Source: an uncultured Desulfobulbus sp. (lineage in GTDB: Bacteria; Desulfobacterota; Desulfobulbia; Desulfobulbales; Desulfobulbaceae). From it: DNA of 64,000 nucleotides. The stretch is from the NCBI RefSeq assembly GCF_963665445.1, contig NZ_OY762276.1, forward strand, positions 1,458,001 through 1,522,000. The letters are read 5' to 3'. Numbering within the stretch: position 1 is the stretch's first letter; the number at the start of each line of letters is the position of its first letter. This document shows, one piece after another, positions 54,201 through 64,000 of the stretch. The notes under the pieces were generated by a model. That model made no database searches and was not told the DNA's origin. It saw nothing but the letters and a program-made list of their open reading frames with translations. Both the position numbers and the translations under genes were made by a program.

Positions 54201-54974
54201 TTGCCATTGCCGCACGTTGTTCCCCGCCCCGCCATTACCCGTGACACGCTTTTTGCCGGTTCGCTGGTCTGCAATCAGCCGACACAGGGGTACCGATTTT
54301 CCATCGATGCAGTGCTTGTAGCCCAGTTTGTGCAGCCCAAAGCACACCACAATGTCCTGGATCTCGGTTGCGGCAGCGGCATTGTCGGACTTATCCTGGC
54401 CTACCGCTCTGCCGAACTGACGGTGCATGGACTGGAAATCCAACCGGAGTTGGCATGCCTTGCCCGGGAAAATATCTGCGCCAACGGCTGGAGTGGGCGC
54501 ATGCAGATCATCGAAGGCGATGCATGTGCCATCGAAGGTTCCATCCAGGCGGAAACTTACGATCTGGTGGTCTGCAATCCTCCCTACGGTACAGCCAATG
54601 GCGGGCGCATCAACCCGAATCCCCAGGCTGCCAACGCCCGCCATGAACTGTGCGGTTCCCTGGAAGATTTTGTTCATGCCGCGGCCTTTACGGTGCGCAA
54701 CCGCGGCACGGTGGTTTTCGTCTATCCCGCCAGGCGGGGGGCGGCCCTGCTGCATATCCTGAGCTGCAATCGCCTCACGCCCAAGCGGATGCAGCCGGTG
54801 TACTCCTACCCGGAAGCGCAGACCGCCCGCCTGCTCCTGATCGAGGCAGTGAAAAACGGGGGCGAACAGTTCGAGATCATGGCACCGTTTTATGTTTACC
54901 ACCACAAAAATGGTCCGTACAGCCAGGCCATGCAGGCGCTTTACCTGGAGAATCCGTCATGCTCGCCAAGGTAA
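54201..54974 (+). CDS. tRNA1(Val) (adenine(37)-N6)-methyltransferase TrmN6-like
   Basis: A 257-residue SAM-dependent methyltransferase: [15 protein letters not shown] near residue 29, SAM loop [10 protein letters not shown] (52-61) and the N6-adenine motif NPPYG (126-130). The domain structure matches TrmN6/YfiC. TTG 54201 is used as start because AGGGAG lies four bases upstream and the frame has no earlier ATG. Its end overlaps the comM start by 16 nt. Confidence 0.85.
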
Positions 54975-56038
54975 ACAGCTGTGCGGTCAGCGGGGTCGAT
55001 GGTCTGCCTATCCAGGTCGAGGTTGATCTGTCCCTGGGGCTGCCTTCTTTTTCCACGGTCGGCCTGGCCGAGGGGGCGGTGCGTGAGGCCAAGGACCGGG
55101 TGCGGGCTGCCATAAAAAATGGCGGTTATGACTTTCCCCAGCGGCGAATAACCGTCAACCTGGCACCGGCCTCGGTCAAAAAAGAGGGCACCGGCTATGA
55201 CCTGCCGATCGCGCTTGGTATTCTTGCCGCCGGTGGCCTGATTTCCGCTGAGCAACTTGAACCGATGGCTATGGTCGGCGAACTGAGCCTGGATGGCAGT
55301 GTCAAGCCGGTGTCCGGTGTCCTGCCCATGGCATTGGCCGCCCGCGACCAGGGATTCAGCCGTTTTCTCGTGCCCCTTGCAAATGTGGCCGAAGCAGCCA
55401 TTGTTCGGGGATTGGAGGTGTACGGTATTGAGCGGCTTGACCAGGCGGTTGAATTCTGCGCCGGTCGTACCCTGCTTGCGCCGCTTGCCCTTGACCCGGC
55501 CGAACTTTTCGCGGCCCAAGAAGGGTATGGTATCGATTTCGCTGATGTCAAGGGGCAGGAGGCGGTCAAACGGGCCATGGAGATCGCTGCCGCCGGCGGG
55601 CATAATCTTCTGTTGAGCGGCATCCCGGGGACGGGGAAGACCATGATGGCCAGACGCCTGCCGACCATCATGCCCGATCTCAGTCTGGAGGAGGCCATCG
55701 AAACCACCAAAGTGTTTTCCACCGCCGGCTTGCTTCCGGAAAAGACACCGCTTCTGGTGACCCGCCCCTTTCGCGCGCCGCACCATACCGTGTCCGATGC
55801 CGGCCTGATCGGCGGCGGCCAGGTTCCGCGTCCCGGCGAGGTTTCCCTGGCCCACAACGGTGTCCTTTTTCTCGATGAGTTGCCCGAATTTAAAAAACAC
55901 GTCCTGGAGGTGCTGCGCCAGCCTCTCGAGGACGGCACGGTCACCATTGCCCGCGCCTCCACCAGCCTCAGCTTTCCGGCCCGGTTCACCCTGGTGGGGG
56001 CCATGAATCCCTGCCCAACGGGACAAGCAATTCATTGA
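54959..56038 (+). pseudogene. comM: YifB/ComM Mg-chelatase-like AAA+ ATPase, truncated by mobile element
   Basis: ComM is a branch-migration helicase that promotes integration of DNA taken up by transformation. The N-terminal Lon-like domain ([15 protein letters not shown]...) and the AAA+ domain with Walker A GIPGTGKT (about 221-228) and Walker [13 protein letters not shown] are complete. At residue about 353 the family motif NPCPCG should follow (...LVGAMNPCP), but the frame reads TGQAIH and stops. About 150 C-terminal residues are missing from a family length near 510. The rest should lie beyond the window, after the inserted element. An in-frame extension to 54650 is not used. Confidence 0.9.
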
Positions 56039-56333
56039 CCAATGTAACCAAGTTCACATCCTTGAGATTTCCCTACCCGTTCCATATCTTCATGAATCGC
56101 CCATTGCATACAATGACCTTGGACTACCCACTTATAAAAATGTTTATTCCAGCGCTGACATCTGTCAAATCCTGAAAATCAGGCAGGATACTTTCAGGGC
56201 AAGAGTACGCGCTGGCATGTATCCCAAGCCTACCCATTTCATCAGTGGATACTGGCGTTTTACTTTAGAAGAGATAAGGAACATCCTTCGACTGACGGAT
56301 CAGTTAAAAGCCCAAGGTAAAGTCAACCGATGA
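56007..56333 (+). CDS. AlpA/MerR-like HTH (excisionase-type) reading frame without a start codon
   Basis: The frame is open from 56007 to the TGA at 56331-56333 and ends in a clear helix-turn-helix protein: [20 protein letters not shown], then a wing-like [21 protein letters not shown], as in excisionases and AlpA-like factors. No ATG, GTG or TTG occurs in frame upstream of the HTH; the only ATG is inside it. The 5' end would therefore have to come from the other element end when the element is circular, or the gene is truncated. It sits exactly at the comM junction. Confidence 0.5.
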
Positions 56334-57417
56334 CCAATATTTGGTTCTCAACAGGATCTGCAATAAATATAACGTATAATCAACAGGTTAGTTCATACAA
56401 TTCCCCAGTTGTGTACATCATTGTGTATCAACCAGAGATAGTATTTAATAATAATTATCATTAATATCCATGTTCAATCTAGCTTCATACATCACCCTAC
56501 CCAATCAAGCAACACACATCCCCTGCTTGCCAGCATTCCATCCACCGAGAAGTACCATTCAAAACTGTTCCACGCATACCTGAGTCAACCATTCCAAAAA
56601 AGTTGAGATCTTATATCCTGAGCCCCATCTGAGATGAATGTATTCCGATAAGAATCAGCTTAATAATTATGATGGTTGTGACCAAATTTAATTATTATTG
56701 TTTTTCTATATACAGAATTCAATTTTTTTAAAAATTGAGTTTAATTGAAATTTAAAATTCAATTGATTTGGAGATTGTGAGATTGGGAGATGGAAAGATA
56801 GACCACTGGTGGATATCGGCCACAGAATGGACAAACGAGAACAATAAACACATATGATTCATGTTCATTGTGTTTGAGATATTAATTTTTAAAATTTAAT
56901 TTTTAGTAAAAGAAAAAAATAATTTAAAATAAAAATATGAACTAAATTTCATTCAAAAAACTGCTTTTTTATGAAATTTGAATGCAAGTATTCGTTGAAA
57001 ATAGAAATTTTATTTATTTTTCTAAAATTAAATTCAAAAATAAAATGATTATTTACTCTAAGAAATAGTTAAAATTTACAATTGTTAAGAACAGAACATA
57101 GAAACAATAAAAATACTAAATGTTCGGCAATCAATAACAACCTATCTCAAAGAAATAAGCATATAGCCACCTACAGCCATGGAACCTTGAACATGTATAA
57201 TCTATTTAAAACATTATTTTCTATTTTCATTTTGTTACTCATTGTTTGAATATATTCCTTATAAAATTATCAGTTTTTTATATTTAGTTAATATGTATGT
57301 ATCAAGGCTTGCCCAGGGAGTATCCGGACACAACTCGCGCTGCCACATACGATTTAAAGACTTCTCAATTATGTATATAATAACATATTTTGAAAAGAAA
57401 TGCAAATTTATCTCCAA

Positions 57418-57594
57418 TTATGGCCTGAGCTCTTGTTTCCAGGTATCGCTTAGAGCAATTTGGAGAAGTTCTCTTTTATAGTGCTGAGCTGGAAAGTCAC
57501 TCAACCATAATCGGTAACCAGGTAATCCATAGGGTCGGTCAAGTTCACCAGGAAACCAAGAATCCCTTGGAATGGTTCTGCTACCAAAACCAAA
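57418..57594 (-). pseudogene. C-terminal gene remnant interrupted by hairpin repeat
   Basis: On the minus strand a protein-like frame (SRTIPRDSWFPGELDRPYG, LPGYRLWLSDFPAQHYKREL, LQIALSDTWKQELRP) ends at a TAA at 57418-57420. Upstream it runs straight into repeat R1, where a TGA closes the frame at 57595. It looks like the end of a real gene whose 5' part was removed or displaced. Family not recognised. Confidence 0.45.
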
Positions 57595-57670
57595 TCAGTT
57601 TTTTCAAATAAATCTTGGTTTGATTTCAAAATCAAATCAGTTTTTCAAAAAATTATTTGATTTGATTTCA
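57589..57670. repeat. Tandem hairpin repeat R1
   Basis: Two tandem units of about 41 bp, each ACCAAATCAG-TTTTTT-C...TTTGATTT or close to it, able to fold as hairpins. It also contains the perfect dyad TTTGATTT-CA-AAATCAAA. It is nearly the same as R2. Confidence 0.75.
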
Positions 57671-57969
57671 CTCCTGAATGGGTCCAAATCAGCACATTTT
57701 CCCATGTATACATCAGGGAAATTGGCAGTTTTGGACCATTTTCTCAAGCAGATCTCAGGCTTTACAAAACGTAGATGTTATTGATTTTATTGATATACCA
57801 CCTCAATCTCTTACTTGGGCACTTCCCCTGAAGCAATGGCCTGTTGGCATGCTTATTCAATAATATCATCATCTTAGTTTAAAAAGGCAGATTTTCATTA
57901 TTTCCTGGATTTGTGCCAATCGGCAGATAGGGAAGCAGATGACAGGTTGGTGATCACAAGAGGAGTAAA

Positions 57970-58050
57970 ACCAAATCAGTTTTTTCAAATTATTCTTGGT
58001 TTGATTTCAAAACCAAATCAGTTTTTTCAAAAAATATCTGATTTGATTTT
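57970..58050. repeat. Tandem hairpin repeat R2
   Basis: Second copy of the two-unit repeat, 380 bp from R1 and in the same orientation, over 85% identical by eye. With R1 it gives four hairpin units, a spacing compatible with iterons, recombinase subsites or a small mobile repeat. Confidence 0.75.
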
Positions 58051-58444
58051 GGTCACCACTGGGAGAGGCTCGGATGAATCCCACTACTCCGGAACAGTTC
58101 CGATCCATCTTGGATCAGGTCAAAGTTTATAAAATCTGATTTCTCTATATAGTAAAAGAATAATATTCAATTTCATTTGGTCGTTGTAGGAATCGGACTA
58201 GACCAGATCGGATACCTCCCTTTGCCATGATGTCGCCCTTCAAGCTACCTGAGGGGCATCTTACATTCCTAGACCTTCTGAACTCTCATATCTTTTCCCA
58301 TTTTAAATTTTATTTTTATGAAAATGAATTTAATTGAGACCTATTTGTATATCTGTTTCTGTAGAATTTAAATGCATTTATCTATATTTTTATGTATAAT
58401 TAATTATATAAAACAAAATAAATTTAATTCGGGACTTAAATTCT

Positions 58445-59146
58445 ATGGTAAAAGCCTATGGATATTGCCGGGTTTCCGGTGTTGGCCAGATTGATGGCAA
58501 TGGGTTTGAGCGGCAGGAAGCAGCAATCTCAGAATTTGGAAAGTTGGCCAACATTGAGATAACCAAGATTTACCGGGAACAGGTATCAGGGACCAAGGAT
58601 GAAGAGTTCCGGGAAGTGTTTCAGGAGATGATAGCTGAGATACTTAAAAATGGAGTTCGGACAATAGTGGTTGAGGGGTTGGATCGGTTAGCTCGGGAAT
58701 ACCGGGTCCAGGAACAGCTCTTGATTTATCTGGTATCCAAAGAGATCACATTGATTGATTGCCGGACTGGGGAAAATGTGACAGAGGCCATCAGTTCTGA
58801 CCCAATGAAGAAAGCTATGGTTCAGATCCAGGGAATCTTCGCTGAACTGGAAAAGAATCTTCTTGTTAAAAAGCTGAGGATTGCTCGGGAGGCCAAACGA
58901 AAGACGGAGGGGAAGTGTGAGGGAAGGAAAGGATGGACCGAACAGGCTGAGAAGAGAGATCTGATCCTTGGGGAAATCAGGAGACTTCGGAGAAAACCCA
59001 AGAAACAGGACCGAATGACCTATGTTGAAGTAGCTAAGAGATTGAATGAGAGAGCATTAGAGGATGACCAGTACACCACTATTACCGGGAAACCATGGTC
59101 GGGACCAATGGTTCAGAACTTCATCCAAAGATATGAGAAGAAGTGA
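58445..59146 (+). CDS. Serine recombinase (resolvase/invertase family)
   Basis: A 233-residue small serine recombinase. The catalytic Ser11 lies in YGYCRVSG, followed by the conserved Q..AI, the VVEGLDRLAREYRVQEQLL helix with active-site Arg residues, and the dimer helix E (MKKAMVQIQGIFAELEKNLLVKKLRIAREAKR). The C-terminal DNA-binding part (about 150-233) is somewhat long and Arg/Lys rich (LRRKPKKQDRMTYVEVAKRLNER). It could resolve multimers of the circular element or invert or integrate DNA. Base composition is less AT-rich than the surroundings. No good ribosome-binding site precedes the ATG. Confidence 0.9.
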   Translation: MVKAYGYCRVSGVGQIDGNGFERQEAAISEFGKLANIEITKIYREQVSGTKDEEFREVFQEMIAEILKNGVRTIVVEGLDRLAREYRVQEQLLIYLVSKEITLIDCRTGENVTEAISSDPMKKAMVQIQGIFAELEKNLLVKKLRIAREAKRKTEGKCEGRKGWTEQAEKRDLILGEIRRLRRKPKKQDRMTYVEVAKRLNERALEDDQYTTITGKPWSGPMVQNFIQRYEKK

Positions 59147-59298
59147 TAACTGTGGACTACTCAGGTTTTAAGACAAGGAACGAAATCGGTTAAGTCACCT
59201 TCTTGGGGGAAACAGATTGATGCTATGGGATTCAGCTAGATAGAATTCGGACGGATCTAATCATTAAAATCTTCAGTTTTCTTTTTCCCCAATAAAAA

Positions 59299-59352
59299 GT
59301 AGGTAAATCTGACAATGCTAATATATATATTAGTATTGACTGAAATACCTAC
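59299..59352. repeat. 54-bp near-palindrome between recombinase and replication genes
   Basis: Two 27-bp arms match at 22 positions, from GTAGGTA at the outside to CTAATATA at the centre. It lies between the convergent serine recombinase and primase-helicase genes. The AT-rich centre and lack of a GC stem argue against a plain terminator; a recombinase crossover (res-type) site or an origin are the likelier readings. Confidence 0.6.
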
Positions 59353-59390
59353 ATTTTTAGATCCGTTCAATAGTTAGATTCGTAAAAAAA

Positions 59391-61814
59391 TCAGAATGTA
59401 GTAACCTTAGAAAACTTCTTTGTTTTTTTGTCAAAACTCATGATATAAACATTTAAACTAATATAATTAAAAATGAGCCATCTAGACATTCTCTTGAAAC
59501 TCCTAGGATGAAGAACTGGTATGATGACAATGCACTTTTTACCATTGTCCCTGAATCCTGAGTTTCTTCCAATTGATTGACTAACTTGTGTTTCAATCAA
59601 GATCTTTTGTATTAAAGGCTCAGATTCTTTTATTACTTCCTCTTCAGTTAGATTTTTCTTTCCGAGGTTATACTCAACCCATTTTGTTAAGTACTCTTTA
59701 TTATTCAGATAAAATTCAAGAATAACTATTTCAGTCTTCATTGTCCCGAAAACAACAGTATTCTCATCTGAAAGGTTATTCATACCCTTAACACCGAGAT
59801 GAGTTAAAGTTTCGTAATTTGAACATTTCAAACCGTCAGAAATGATCTTCAGATTATATTTAGCAAATAAACTAGCTTGATCTTCAAGAATTTCCTTTGA
59901 TGTGGAATGAACCAATAAATAACAAACATTATCAGCAGACAACTTCCATTCCAGGAAGCTGTCATCTTTTCTTCTCATATTAAATTCTTTATCTAATTCA
60001 AAAAGTTCATCCAACTCAAGAGTCATTTCAGAGAAATCAGAACCCCAAAAATAGATTTCAACTAAAGATCGTTCAGTAGTTAGAACTAAAATATCTTTAG
60101 TTTTGATAGTTTTATCCTTTTCTTTATGGCTAAAAACATCAAAAAATGATTTTTGTTTATAAATATAAAAATATTCAGTTTCATTACCCCAAGTGCTTGG
60201 GATCGTTAGACTTGGTTTTGACAATTTTTGACTATTATCGCTCGCCAATCTCTTCCACTCAGAATCAACAAATTCATCAAATATAATTGGTTTGTCGTCA
60301 CTCCATATATCTCCATGATTACACATCAACATTATCTTTAACTTTGCAGTCGTCATCAAGATAACAGAATCATATTTAATCTGATCGTTATTCTTTTTAT
60401 ATTCATAAAGTAATTTATATCTATCTGAATACGACAAAGAAGTAGTTTCTAAATATTTACTGAATGAAGGTTTTTTCTCATTTGAAAGATATTCATTGTA
60501 ATCTGAAATTAATGAATTGAATCCTTTATCTTTAAGTATTGTTTCAACGGAGAGTATTTTTCTATATTTCACACCGATACTATCAAGATACGCTGCCTTT
60601 TCATTCATATTCTCGTTTGTATATGTAGCGTAGATAAAATTATATTGTCTCCCAAGACTTAAAACAGTTGTTGATTTTCCTAGTCCCTCATTCGTGATTA
60701 GATAGTTATGCCATTTCTCTCTGTTTATACTTGGATCTAAAAATCTTTTTATTAACTTTGATATTTTGGCTTGAGTATCAGCTCTTACATCCTTCGGATT
60801 TTTTCGTTTTGCGAAATCATCCAGGGAAAAAATCGTTTCAAACTCCTTCCTCCGATTATTCTCGTTAACTCGATTATCAAATATATAATTAGGATTGTAC
60901 TCTTCAGAGTATGGGACATTGAAAACTCCAGGACCTTTATCATTTTCATCACGCCTAAACCTTAACGATTTTGAGCTAGAGCCAGGATCAAGTATCATTC
61001 CATACATATTCCTGACCTGCTTCCCGTATCCGTTTAATACCTCGCTCGGAATATCAGAGATTTTTTTTGCTGTCCTAGCTTTTGATATTTTTTTCAGCGT
61101 CTTTTGTGCTTTTAAATCAACATTATCAAGATGAAAATCATTTTTACCAAATTCAACATCAACAAGAATCGTGCTTATATTGCCGCCATTTTTATTATTA
61201 GCAATTGAACTGGCTGCAGGATCAACGGCATACCCATCAAAAAATTTTATAATTTCACTGTAATAAATTTTATATAGCTCTGCGCTATCAATTGGTTTCA
61301 AAGTTGGAATTAAGATATGCAACTTATTATGGTCTACTGTATGACTATGCGAAGTTGATAGAATATAATTATAATTTGAATTTTTAAGTATATCATGTGC
61401 TACGTCATAACTTATATATCTATTTGTAAGTTTATTTCCATCTTTGTCTTTATTATCAAAATCCAAGAATATAAAATCAGCCTGTATGCCATATATCTTT
61501 GAAGTGAGTTTGTTATAAGTCTTTGACGGAAGATATCCTACATTCTGAAGATTACCAGACATGAATACTTTCCAGGTATCTTCGTTCTTTAATTTTTGTT
61601 TTAAATTGACTCTTAACCAAGTTAACTTGCCGCTTTGAGCCTGAATTATCACCTGCTTTTTATCATCTTTATTCTTGACCCACTCAGGGTATTCTACCAC
61701 TGAAATTCTATATTGCTTATCCTGTGAATTCATAAATTCATTTCTATTTTTATATGTTTTGCTATTACTTGTATAAATATTATTATTACTTGTTGAGATT
61801 TCCTTTTCTGACAT
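59391..61814 (-). CDS. Replication initiator: AEP-like primase fused to a superfamily 1/2-type helicase
   Basis: An 807-residue protein with codon use as AT-rich as its surroundings. The N-terminal third has primase/polymerase-like motifs: FIFLDFDN (about 113-120) for the metal-binding acids, and STSHSHTVDHNKLHILIPT (about 145-165), the sxH..H.LHI pattern of archaeo-eukaryotic-type primases. The C-terminal part has Walker A NEGLGKST (about 372-380), Walker B KPIIFDEF (about 510) and a late QSIGRNSGFRDNGK (about 745-758) resembling helicase motif VI. ATG 61814 has AAAGGA upstream; an in-frame ATG at 61880 does not. It likely replicates the excised element. Confidence 0.65.
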   Translation of the reverse strand: MSEKEISTSNNNIYTSNSKTYKNRNEFMNSQDKQYRISVVEYPEWVKNKDDKKQVIIQAQSGKLTWLRVNLKQKLKNEDTWKVFMSGNLQNVGYLPSKTYNKLTSKIYGIQADFIFLDFDNKDKDGNKLTNRYISYDVAHDILKNSNYNYILSTSHSHTVDHNKLHILIPTLKPIDSAELYKIYYSEIIKFFDGYAVDPAASSIANNKNGGNISTILVDVEFGKNDFHLDNVDLKAQKTLKKISKARTAKKISDIPSEVLNGYGKQVRNMYGMILDPGSSSKSLRFRRDENDKGPGVFNVPYSEEYNPNYIFDNRVNENNRRKEFETIFSLDDFAKRKNPKDVRADTQAKISKLIKRFLDPSINREKWHNYLITNEGLGKSTTVLSLGRQYNFIYATYTNENMNEKAAYLDSIGVKYRKILSVETILKDKGFNSLISDYNEYLSNEKKPSFSKYLETTSLSYSDRYKLLYEYKKNNDQIKYDSVILMTTAKLKIMLMCNHGDIWSDDKPIIFDEFVDSEWKRLASDNSQKLSKPSLTIPSTWGNETEYFYIYKQKSFFDVFSHKEKDKTIKTKDILVLTTERSLVEIYFWGSDFSEMTLELDELFELDKEFNMRRKDDSFLEWKLSADNVCYLLVHSTSKEILEDQASLFAKYNLKIISDGLKCSNYETLTHLGVKGMNNLSDENTVVFGTMKTEIVILEFYLNNKEYLTKWVEYNLGKKNLTEEEVIKESEPLIQKILIETQVSQSIGRNSGFRDNGKKCIVIIPVLHPRSFKRMSRWLIFNYISLNVYIMSFDKKTKKFSKVTTF

Positions 61815-62044
61815 TTTAATTTTTTCCTTTCGTAATGGGGTATTTTTTCTATCTAAAGTTAATGCCCTTTTTAATTTCATTAATTATTTGTTTTCTACTT
61901 TATATTTTTGATTTAATTTTAAACTATATAATTATATCGTATTGATACAATGCATAATTAACACATAAACATATCATGTAACATATGTTCATAGTATTCG
62001 TCACAATCATTAAACGGATATATACAATCATTCGTTAATTCACA

Positions 62045-62191
62045 TTAAATGTTGTTGAGGTATTGTTTATCCTCTTCAGATGCCTCTTGCATAAAAACCT
62101 CTATCAATTCAATAAATGCTTCTGGTCCATTTCCATCAAAATCTTCTTCAATACATTGTTTTATAATTGAAATTTTCATCATTGCTTCCAT
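62045..62191 (-). CDS. Small acidic protein (48 aa) in the replication operon
   Basis: A 48-residue acidic protein (MEAMMKISIIKQCIEEDFDG, then NGPEAFIELIEVFMQEASEE, ending DKQYLNNI) with AGGAG six bases before the ATG. It follows the RHH gene by 14 bp and precedes the primase-helicase by about 230 bp. Function unknown; small acidic partners of copy-control or antitoxin systems are possible analogues. Confidence 0.6.
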   Translation of the reverse strand: MEAMMKISIIKQCIEEDFDGNGPEAFIELIEVFMQEASEEDKQYLNNI

Positions 62192-62205
62192 TGTTATCTC
62201 CTATT

Positions 62206-62370
62206 TTATAGTCCATATCGTTTTGGGTATTTTCTGTGCGTTTCTAAGAGCAAGTCTATTGCCATCCTAATTAGTTTTGACTTGCTCCATCTCAGATCCT
62301 TTTCAAGCTCTTCAAGTTGCTCAAGCTGATCCTGGGTAGCAGAGATTGAAAATGTTGTTGTTTTTCTCAT
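62206..62370 (-). CDS. CopG-like ribbon-helix-helix protein
   Basis: A 54-residue protein, MRKTTTFSIS followed by two helices (LEQLEELEKDLRWSKSKLIRMAIDLLL), the standard RHH/CopG layout of a beta strand for DNA contacts and a dimerising helix pair. GGAGGAG precedes the ATG. First gene of a minus-strand operon leading to the replication protein, as CopG precedes RepB in pMV158-type plasmids, so it probably represses its own promoter and controls copy number. Confidence 0.72.
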   Translation of the reverse strand: MRKTTTFSISATQDQLEQLEELEKDLRWSKSKLIRMAIDLLLETHRKYPKRYGL

Positions 62371-62398
62371 TATGGCTCCTCCATAGTATAATTTTTAA

Positions 62399-62423
62399 CA
62401 ACACAGCGTTGTTGATTGTGTTG
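62399..62423. promoter_or_regulatory. Operator dyad upstream of the CopG-like gene
   Basis: CAACACA...TGTGTTG dyad with an internal AACAAC repeat, just upstream of a TATACT -10-like element (complement of 62383-62388) and the CopG-like start. It is the natural binding site for an autoregulating RHH protein. Confidence 0.5.
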
Positions 62424-62531
62424 CTGTTATTATTATTTATATTTCTGGAATGCCCGAATCAGAAGAATCCGCCATTTTTTTCATTTTTTTACTAAATCTT
62501 AATATTTCTTAACAAACTAACATGCAACTAT

Positions 62532-62765
62532 GGCCGATGTAATGTGTTTTGGCGATTTCCCCAAGTACAGCAACTTGAACCTTTTCTCTGGAGTGTCGCC
62601 GATCTGCTCAGGGGGAATATGGATGCGTCCGAGTACAAGGACTATATTTTTGGAATGTTCTTCCTTAAACCTCTGTCGGATGCATTTGAGGAAGAATAAG
62701 AGAGGGTTATCTAGTCTTACCTAGACAAGGGAAAAACTCGCCCAGAGGATGCGCACTCTGAGTAA
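62532..62765 (+). pseudogene. hsdM: HsdM (type I restriction-modification methyltransferase) N-terminal remnant
   Basis: The frame reads [40 protein letters not shown], and EE followed by TAA. This is the hallmark start of HsdM ([25 protein letters not shown] in the family). It continues past that stop at 62697 as ERVI, a TAG, SYLDKGKTRPEDAHSE and a TAA. The M-subunit body, HsdS and HsdR are missing here. It marks a lost type I system, either cargo of the element or the scar of an older insertion. Confidence 0.8.
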
Positions 62766-62911
62766 GTTACTCTTAAACTTGAACACTCAGGACCAATGCT
62801 GCCAGGTGATCAGTGCGTAGTAATTTTTTGATTAAGATTCAGTCTGTTATAATTGCCATATTCAATTCATTGCGGTAAACATGCAAATACCACATTTTCA
62901 AGGAGACTTGC

Positions 62912-63580
62912 ATGCGTCCCTCCTGCTGTATTCTACTCTTCCTTCTCTCTGCCCCTGCCACCTGCCTCTCCTGGCCTGCTAAGGTCATTTCCATATCCGA
63001 TGGTGACACAATCACTGTTCTCCACTCAGGAGCTGAGGAAAGAATCCGCCTCTACGGGATAGATTGCCCTGAAAAAAACCAAGATTATGGCCAACAGGCA
63101 AAGTCCATCACCAGTTCATTAATCACCGGCAGACAAGTTGATGTCCAAACCGTAACAGCTGATCAGTATGGCAGAACAGTTGCCCTGGTCTCAGTAGATG
63201 GCCAGAGCCTGAATGAGTTGATTATCAGAAATGGGTATGCCTGGGTCTATCCCCAATATTGCAAAAAATCATACTGTTCCGAGTGGCTCAGATTGGAAGC
63301 AAATGCTCGCCAGTTGAAGAAAGGTTTATGGGATGGTTCAAATATTGTGAAACCTTGGGATTTTCGAAAGTACGCACAAGCATCCAGGAAGGAAACACCA
63401 GCCACTCCTCGCACTTTGCCCAAAGAGGGAAACAGTTCAGGATTCAGGTGTGATGGCAGAACCTATTGTTCCCAGATGACTTCTTGCGCTGAAGCAACAT
63501 GGTTCATCCAAAACTGTCCTGGTACCAAGATGGATGGCGATAATGATAGGGTTCCTTGCGAAAAACAGTGGTGCAGGTGA
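62912..63580 (+). CDS. Secreted thermonuclease-like nuclease with Excalibur domain
   Basis: A 222-residue exported protein (signal peptide about 1-20). The SNase domain (about 21-155) keeps ISDGDTITV, RIRLYGIDCPE and QYGRTVALV, matching the Ca- and phosphate-binding acids and catalytic Arg/Glu residues of staphylococcal nuclease. A C-terminal Excalibur-type Ca-binding module (about 178-222) has FRCDGRTYCSQM, then CAEATWFIQNCPG and DGDNDRVPCE. AAGGAG precedes the ATG. It degrades DNA or RNA outside the cytoplasm. Its place in a mobile element suggests a cargo or entry-related gene. Confidence 0.88.
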   Translation: MRPSCCILLFLLSAPATCLSWPAKVISISDGDTITVLHSGAEERIRLYGIDCPEKNQDYGQQAKSITSSLITGRQVDVQTVTADQYGRTVALVSVDGQSLNELIIRNGYAWVYPQYCKKSYCSEWLRLEANARQLKKGLWDGSNIVKPWDFRKYAQASRKETPATPRTLPKEGNSSGFRCDGRTYCSQMTSCAEATWFIQNCPGTKMDGDNDRVPCEKQWCR

Positions 63581-63719
63581 TTCGCGGCAGGGTAGTTGAG
63601 TGGTCAACTGTTATTGGAAGTATACGTAACAAAACCTGTTTTCTCTATTTATATTAGGCAATTGCCTGATATTAGTTTCTCTTTTGGCTCCCGAGAAGTC
63701 AAGCATTTTCCGAGAGGGG

Positions 63720-64000
63720 TTAATTCTCCGCATTCTCTGCGGGTGTGCTTTTGCTTTTTTCTATTATTCTGTCAACGGCCCTATAATAATCACGCTGTGC
63801 TTTCATATTGGAAAGATGACAATACCTCATGGTCGTTTTGATTCTTGTATGGCCGAGCAAATATTGAATGGTGACCAAATCTGCATCAGCATTGAGGAGT
63901 TGGGTTGCCATGGTATGCCGCAATTGGTGGCAGGAAACGGCTATCCCACTTTTCTTTGAATAGTACTCAATTCGTTTTTGGATGCCTCGAACCGATATGG
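63720..64000 (-). CDS. Tyrosine recombinase/integrase, C-terminal part (5' end outside window)
   Basis: The last 92 or so residues of a phage-integrase-family protein. The catalytic HxxR is in HQLRHTMATQLLN, followed by YLLGHTRIKTTMRYCHL with the second His and the Tyr nucleophile. The N-terminal domains lie beyond 64000. The tail KAQRDYYRAVDRIIEKS resembles integrases of Tn554-like or RIT-type recombinase clusters. It is the best candidate for the enzyme that inserted the element into comM. Confidence 0.9.
   Translation of the reverse strand, partial: ISVRGIQKRIEYYSKKSGIAVSCHQLRHTMATQLLNADADLVTIQYLLGHTRIKTTMRYCHLSNMKAQRDYYRAVDRIIEKSKSTPAENAEN

Follow-up and report, generated by a model that had tools for sequence, protein, structure and literature searches.

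The window analyzed here is a stretch of 64,000 nucleotides (G000:C1:1458001-1522000) from the single-contig, 5.08-Mb genome of an uncultured Desulfobulbus sp., and near its right end the gene comM is interrupted by an island that carries its own integrase, a large serine recombinase (LSR). Positions given without a contig prefix are those of the window. The 5' part of comM (54959..56016, plus strand) is legible from its first base through GAMNPCP, encodes ComM residues 1 to 352 plus two bases of codon 353, and ends at the core of the attachment (att) site; the last host base, 56016, belongs to the codon for the second Pro of the NPCPCG motif. An earlier note on this DNA had placed an insertion at these codons, and this was borne out, with the reading leaving the host gene after 56016 and G+C dropping from 0.62 to 0.29-0.45. 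The note had also proposed a search to the right for the rest of the gene. The comM 3' part is present at G000:C1:1543066; no other sequence of this genome matches Mg_chelatase_C (E <= 0.001). It resumes after the right-junction core (G000:C1:1542907-1542908). Joining the flanks at their common CC dinucleotide (attL core at 56015..56016, plus strand) restores one open comM of 509 codons, and the junction positions give a length of 28,892 bp for the island. The direct repeat of the left junction that had been expected shrinks to this CC, with no direct repeat longer than the 2-bp core at the two junctions. The claimed disruption of comM stands for the gene itself, which is no longer intact; because no second complete copy was found in this genome and comM is unsplit in all five same-genus genomes examined, ComM function should also be lost in the host, judging from sequence.

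The integrase lies at the right end of the island, beyond the window (G000:C1:1541405-1542907, 501 codons), and reads out through attR. Its domain set (Resolvase PF00239, 6.6e-13; Recombinase PF07508, 3.5e-5; zinc ribbon PF13408, 3.3e-7), the short core without a long repeat, and the restored target gene are those of an LSR integrative element at comM. The reading frame has no stop codon within the island, and in the integrated state it continues through attR into 86 codons of out-of-frame comM, giving 587 amino acids. What the same frame meets across attP can be read from the island itself, which contains an inverted duplication of 7,562 bp (left arm 56015..63576, plus strand; right arm G000:C1:1533565-1541126, reversed). 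The arms differ at one of 7,562 positions, and the sequence past each arm differs between them. The right arm ends in a complete attP, beyond which lie 257 bp from the 3' end of the integrase gene, and therefore the island holds attL, attR, and an inverted attP. Because the right arm and the 257-bp LSR tail are contiguous only across attP, this segment probably arose as a copy of part of a circular or replicating form, rejoined in reverse. Across this attP, the LSR frame gains 105 codons of an excisionase-like helix-turn-helix, for a total of 606 amino acids. At the integrated left end this helix-turn-helix frame (56016..56333, plus strand; phrog_66, E = 4.9e-4; HTH_17 below the cut-off at E = 0.032, with no Pfam match at 0.01) has no ATG, GTG, or TTG upstream of the helix-turn-helix. 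By mononucleotide shuffling, the chance of the 106-codon stretch staying open in the LSR frame is 0.002. Neither the position of attP inside the integrase gene nor the 7.56-kb inverted duplication, which brings a further attP, was described in the earlier note.

The suggestion that related elements be sought in other comM genes led to a separate LSR family at the same motif. We searched 394 genomes of the phylum for comM, of which 371 matched, and 33 with several or weak matches were searched again. In profile searches, an antisense LSR ending inside comM was found at all eight 5' junctions analyzed from other genomes (G282, G588, G451, G510, G285, G473, G673, and G423); four further genomes with split or odd comM (G630, G337, G548, and G424) lie outside this junction set. 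One of them, G424 (G424:C66, L049), has a comM of almost full length and, on a different contig, an additional piece of the comM 3' part. These eight LSRs and that of locus L028, referred to as A2, are 45-77% identical to the first member. The Desulfobulbus LSR is only 24% identical to A2, sits on the opposite side, and uses a CC core 3 bp beyond the inferred A2 TG core; it is not an A2 member, although it would work like one. In six A2 cases for which both element ends could be joined, the LSR frame continues for 439-505 nucleotides beyond the core and enters a helix-turn-helix.

A profile of the nine A2 LSRs retrieved 308 relatives in genome_contigs, and the best 80 were kept. The LSR ends inside the comM 5' part in 57 of these 80 loci (class A); since the loci were chosen by likeness to comM-inserted LSRs, this proportion does not apply to LSRs at large. 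Three more do the same with a comM match cut by the contig end, three touch the comM 3' part (one cleanly, L126), four are unsplit fusions, one is long with another tail, and 12 fall elsewhere. Three candidates were set aside: L071 as an LSR reading into the comM 3' part, owing to Ns at the junction; L068 in the same role, where the LSR stops about 25 nucleotides before the core and the length of 579 amino acids was wrong; and L127 (653 amino acids) as an LSR-helix-turn-helix fusion, where the tail is not a helix-turn-helix by eye. By record titles, this wider LSR family is spread across many phyla, mostly in metagenome-assembled genomes, which can be misbinned; one such element (L058) is carried by Trichlorobacter thiogenes. 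Among 77 distant viral LSRs, 74 are complete open reading frames, none of at least 560 amino acids, with a maximum of 498.

Joining element ends across genomes provides evidence that attP lies within the LSR frame in this family. The 57 genomes entered comprised 52 reached via 53 of the 57 class-A loci and five from the first survey; where one genome held several 3' parts, the best pair was used. In the 40 evaluable genomes, the LSR frame stays open for at least 400 nucleotides past the core in 36 and for at least 200 in 38. The other two frames, read in 49 pairs, stay open for at least 400 nucleotides in only 1 of 98 readings (the +1 frame once, the +2 frame never). A helix-turn-helix-like pattern, usually a double XRE helix-turn-helix, is present in 37 of the 40 joined tails. 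An initial count with a narrower motif window, 27 of 32 pairs, is superseded by these figures. The helix-turn-helix tail, searched in plasmids and phages, was found in one record of each.

The four unsplit loci (L090, L100, L111, and L114) encode natural LSR-helix-turn-helix fusions of 594-693 amino acids without comM beside them, and the joined tails are colinear with these fusions from the first residues past the core. At the predicted point, L100 (19/26) and L111 (17/26) have inverted arms whose symmetry is above the maximum of the shuffles. Of the four genomes that carry these fusions, G737, G738, and G739 have a whole, unsplit comM. No terminal overlap was found for the contigs of L114 and L090, and they therefore cannot count as free circles. 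The L114 protein matches Resolvase (3.9e-31), Recombinase (8.7e-18), and, in two stretches, HTH_3 (5.9e-15). Its AlphaFold2 model, built from an alignment of 39 rows in which some tail rows are partly misaligned, has a mean predicted local distance difference test (pLDDT) score of 86, with segment 482-508 below 50 and two confident helix-turn-helix domains after it. By hand count the att core falls at about residue 502, inside this low-confidence linker. The top PDB matches of the model in Foldseek are serine integrase complexes, both with and without a recombination directionality factor (RDF).

We consider it quite probable that these observations are best explained by a comM island whose stopless LSR gene crosses attP into a helix-turn-helix and is trimmed upon integration, as a form of state control. 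The LSR would recombine attP with the comM attB, and because attP lies between the recombinase and the helix-turn-helix, integration would strip the C-terminal domain and leave a shorter enzyme with every catalytic part. Excision would restore the LSR-helix-turn-helix fusion along with comM. The free circle alone would thus encode the long form and the integrated island alone the short form, and therefore the state of the DNA would fix the form of its own recombinase. State control is the most likely purpose of the split, and a tethered directionality factor or an autorepressor is the role that we favor for the helix-turn-helix, as a candidate for experiment. If the domain is RDF-like, the long form would oppose reintegration and the short form would be unable to excise, so that each state would hold itself until the balance shifts, for example, when a helix-turn-helix is supplied in trans. 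A bolder version, which we offer tentatively, is that these are integration-gated serine integrases, in which at least two LSR lineages that converged on NPCPCG have attP in the fusion linker, have their integrase rewritten at every recombination event, and form a self-encoded two-state DNA memory with no separate directionality gene; here the long and short forms would each favor the state that encodes them.

Several observations weigh against the state-control explanation. The evidence consists of geometry, reading frames, and frame conservation, and the trimming and rebuilding of the integrase are read from these. Beyond the 40 evaluable genomes, three were contig limited and 14 not evaluable, and two of the 40 failed the fusion test outright, at 83 nucleotides (G684) and 62 nucleotides (G710). 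Since the best pair was taken wherever there were several 3' parts, some pairs may mix elements; an alternative G725 pair gives just 40 nucleotides. The early stop of the L068 LSR counts on the same side, as do an arm symmetry within the shuffle range in L114 (14/26) and L090 (13/26) and a comM 3' part in G740 besides its unsplit fusion (L100). In the Desulfobulbus island, the helix-turn-helix is a weak match, and the single-sequence fold of a 212-amino-acid fragment was uninformative (pLDDT 38). No close relative of this LSR was found in other genomes among 257 of the class (E <= 1e-20), by pattern scans of viral_contigs and genome_contigs, or in plasmids (1e-10), with only distant matches (23-25% identity) in two other genomes among 395 of the phylum and in three phage records; the fusion in this island therefore rests on one element.

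A passive overlap would account for much of the same geometry. Under this explanation, attP would fall near the 3' end of the LSR gene by chance, since a compact module keeps the enzyme next to its site, and the helix-turn-helix would be an ordinary regulator, fused in one state and in the other translated on its own from a TTG or GTG, without regulatory meaning. The short LSR retains the usual LSR domains, and 29 of 30 orphan tails have an in-frame ATG, GTG, or TTG ahead of the first helix-turn-helix (ATG in four), often a GTG or TTG within the first three codons past the core; the helix-turn-helix may therefore also be translated alone. A neutral fusion would nevertheless be expected to gain a stop after the core easily, whereas 36 of the 40 genomes keep the frame over some 150 codons, the natural fusions are colinear with the joined tails, and the core falls inside a linker. 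We regard a purely passive overlap as doubtful.

Integration could also be suicidal in the manner of archaeal SSV-type tyrosine integrases, such that the split could be reversed only with enzyme provided in trans by a relative and the islands would mostly be trapped. The split gene of the integrated state fits this. A locus of about 235 kb in G673 (G673:C1:3770336-4006573, L042-L048), where one comM 5' part is followed by eight 3' parts, one of them decayed, is an array of successive comM-targeting elements and suggests accretion without loss. Unlike in SSV-type integrases, the catalytic part remains intact and the loss is limited to the C-terminal domain, and three of the four genomes that have an unsplit fusion also have an unsplit comM, albeit with the fusions on contigs not established as free circles; suicidal integration is in our judgment unlikely. 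For the Desulfobulbus island only, two element copies might have been misassembled or rearranged into the inverted duplication with its internal attP. The near identity of the arms would fit such an artifact; against it stand the single 5.08-Mb contig, the exact restoration of comM, and the distinct sequence past each arm, which leave it very improbable, and the family-wide result is independent of this island.

The rest of the island can be described around its arms, each of which holds the excisionase-like frame, an AT-rich stretch, a small serine recombinase, an 829-amino-acid protein, and a nuclease. The AT-rich stretch (57586..58049, plus strand) contains two 83-bp direct repeats that are 92% alike, recurs in a second island near 5.07 Mb, and is a possible replication origin. 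The recombinase (58445..59146, plus strand; 233 amino acids) is of the resolvase/invertase type (PF00239, E = 3.8e-26; phrog_125, DNA invertase), and the nuclease (62912..63580, plus strand) combines SNase and Excalibur domains by domain match, in agreement with the earlier note. That note also listed a primase-helicase module; the protein concerned is the 829-amino-acid one (59391..61880, minus strand). Primase-like and Walker motifs are seen by eye only, and no relatives were found in Pfam (E up to 10), PHROGs (0.1), PDB sequences (1), plasmids (1e-3), or a scan of viral_contigs; neither this module nor the "replicative" character assigned to the island gained support. Recombinases of both chemistries are present as claimed, and neither is the integrase, which lies outside the window. 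The tyrosine recombinase at the window edge is part of a nested element (63611..64000, minus strand, onward to about G000:C1:1523834; in full G000:C1:1521611-1523834) that measures about 2.2 kb and has two overlapping tyrosine recombinase genes; six near-identical copies of it are present in this genome. Compared with the others, the copy in the island is missing about 75 bp near one end.

Besides the nested element, the region between the arms contains a further SNase gene, a His-Xaa-Ser radical-SAM cassette (HxsD, HxsB, and HxsC above the cut-off; HxsA below), a ROS/MUCR regulator, and unknown proteins. By eye, HxsB-like and HxsD-like genes also lie near the unsplit fusion L111, which suggests that the cassette is recurrent cargo (loci L010:11812-15305 and L283:5351-7155). 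No relaxase or transfer gene was matched among the larger open reading frames of the island, the only ones scanned. The second island, at about 5.06-5.07 Mb (L017, G000:C1:5057001-5076000), has modules 93-96% identical to those described here, comprising the resolvase region, the nuclease, a ROS/MUCR-like gene, and a MatP-like gene, with a different protein at the place of the 829-amino-acid one. A 669-amino-acid tyrosine-recombinase-like gene was seen by eye near this second island.

The AbaR/Tn7-like islands of Acinetobacter are also inserted in comM, through DDE transposition. The Desulfobulbus island shares their host gene and differs in using an LSR with a 2-bp core, such that its ends have only these 2 bp in common. 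Relative to those islands, the earlier proposal of a different class converging on comM is sound; as a claim of novelty it fails because elements that insert into comM by means of an LSR had been reported before (Durrant 2022, PMC10083194). In that study, the gene for magnesium chelatase/ATP-dependent protease is the target of 12.4% of the predicted site-specific integrases, and its LSR elements in comM/yifB match ours in LSR class, target gene, and site-specific insertion. The available sections do not describe an attP within the reading frame of the LSR, and the main text contains neither "helix-turn-helix" nor "within the LSR" and has "fusion" once, concerning protein engineering.

An att site inside the integrase gene is the point in common with the suicidal tyrosine integrases of SSV1, pTN3, and pT26-2, which are split on integration (PMC8371274, available sections). 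Those archaeal enzymes are of the tyrosine class and have the portion bearing the catalytic domain separated, whereas here the enzyme is a serine recombinase that keeps its N-terminal catalytic domain and would lose only its C-terminal helix-turn-helix. The same 2021 review, in the portion available, describes self-disrupting recombinases as exclusively archaeal. Here, a bacterial serine-integrase family appears to disrupt its own gene, in a manner that would spare catalysis and remove only a C-terminal DNA-binding domain; our searches of listings in an open-licence PMC library yielded no report of a self-splitting serine integrase. In mycobacteriophage integration-dependent immunity, as described in the accessible text of PMC8092301, attP likewise lies in a gene, that of a repressor beside a tyrosine integrase, and the C terminus differs between the free and integrated states; there a phage repressor is altered, and here it would be the serine integrase itself. 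Since the sequence that follows attP in frame encodes a candidate partner, the control of LSR directionality becomes open to direct experiment, as do the directionality factors of the LSRs wanted as genome-writing tools. Engineered integrase-RDF fusions, which recombine attL with attR efficiently and attP with attB less so (Olorunniji 2017, PMC5737554, available sections), likewise pair a serine integrase with a small partner. They show that direction can be set by a tethered partner, so that the idea is open to experiment without being proven; those fusions are man-made, and the helix-turn-helix described here is a natural candidate for the same arrangement.

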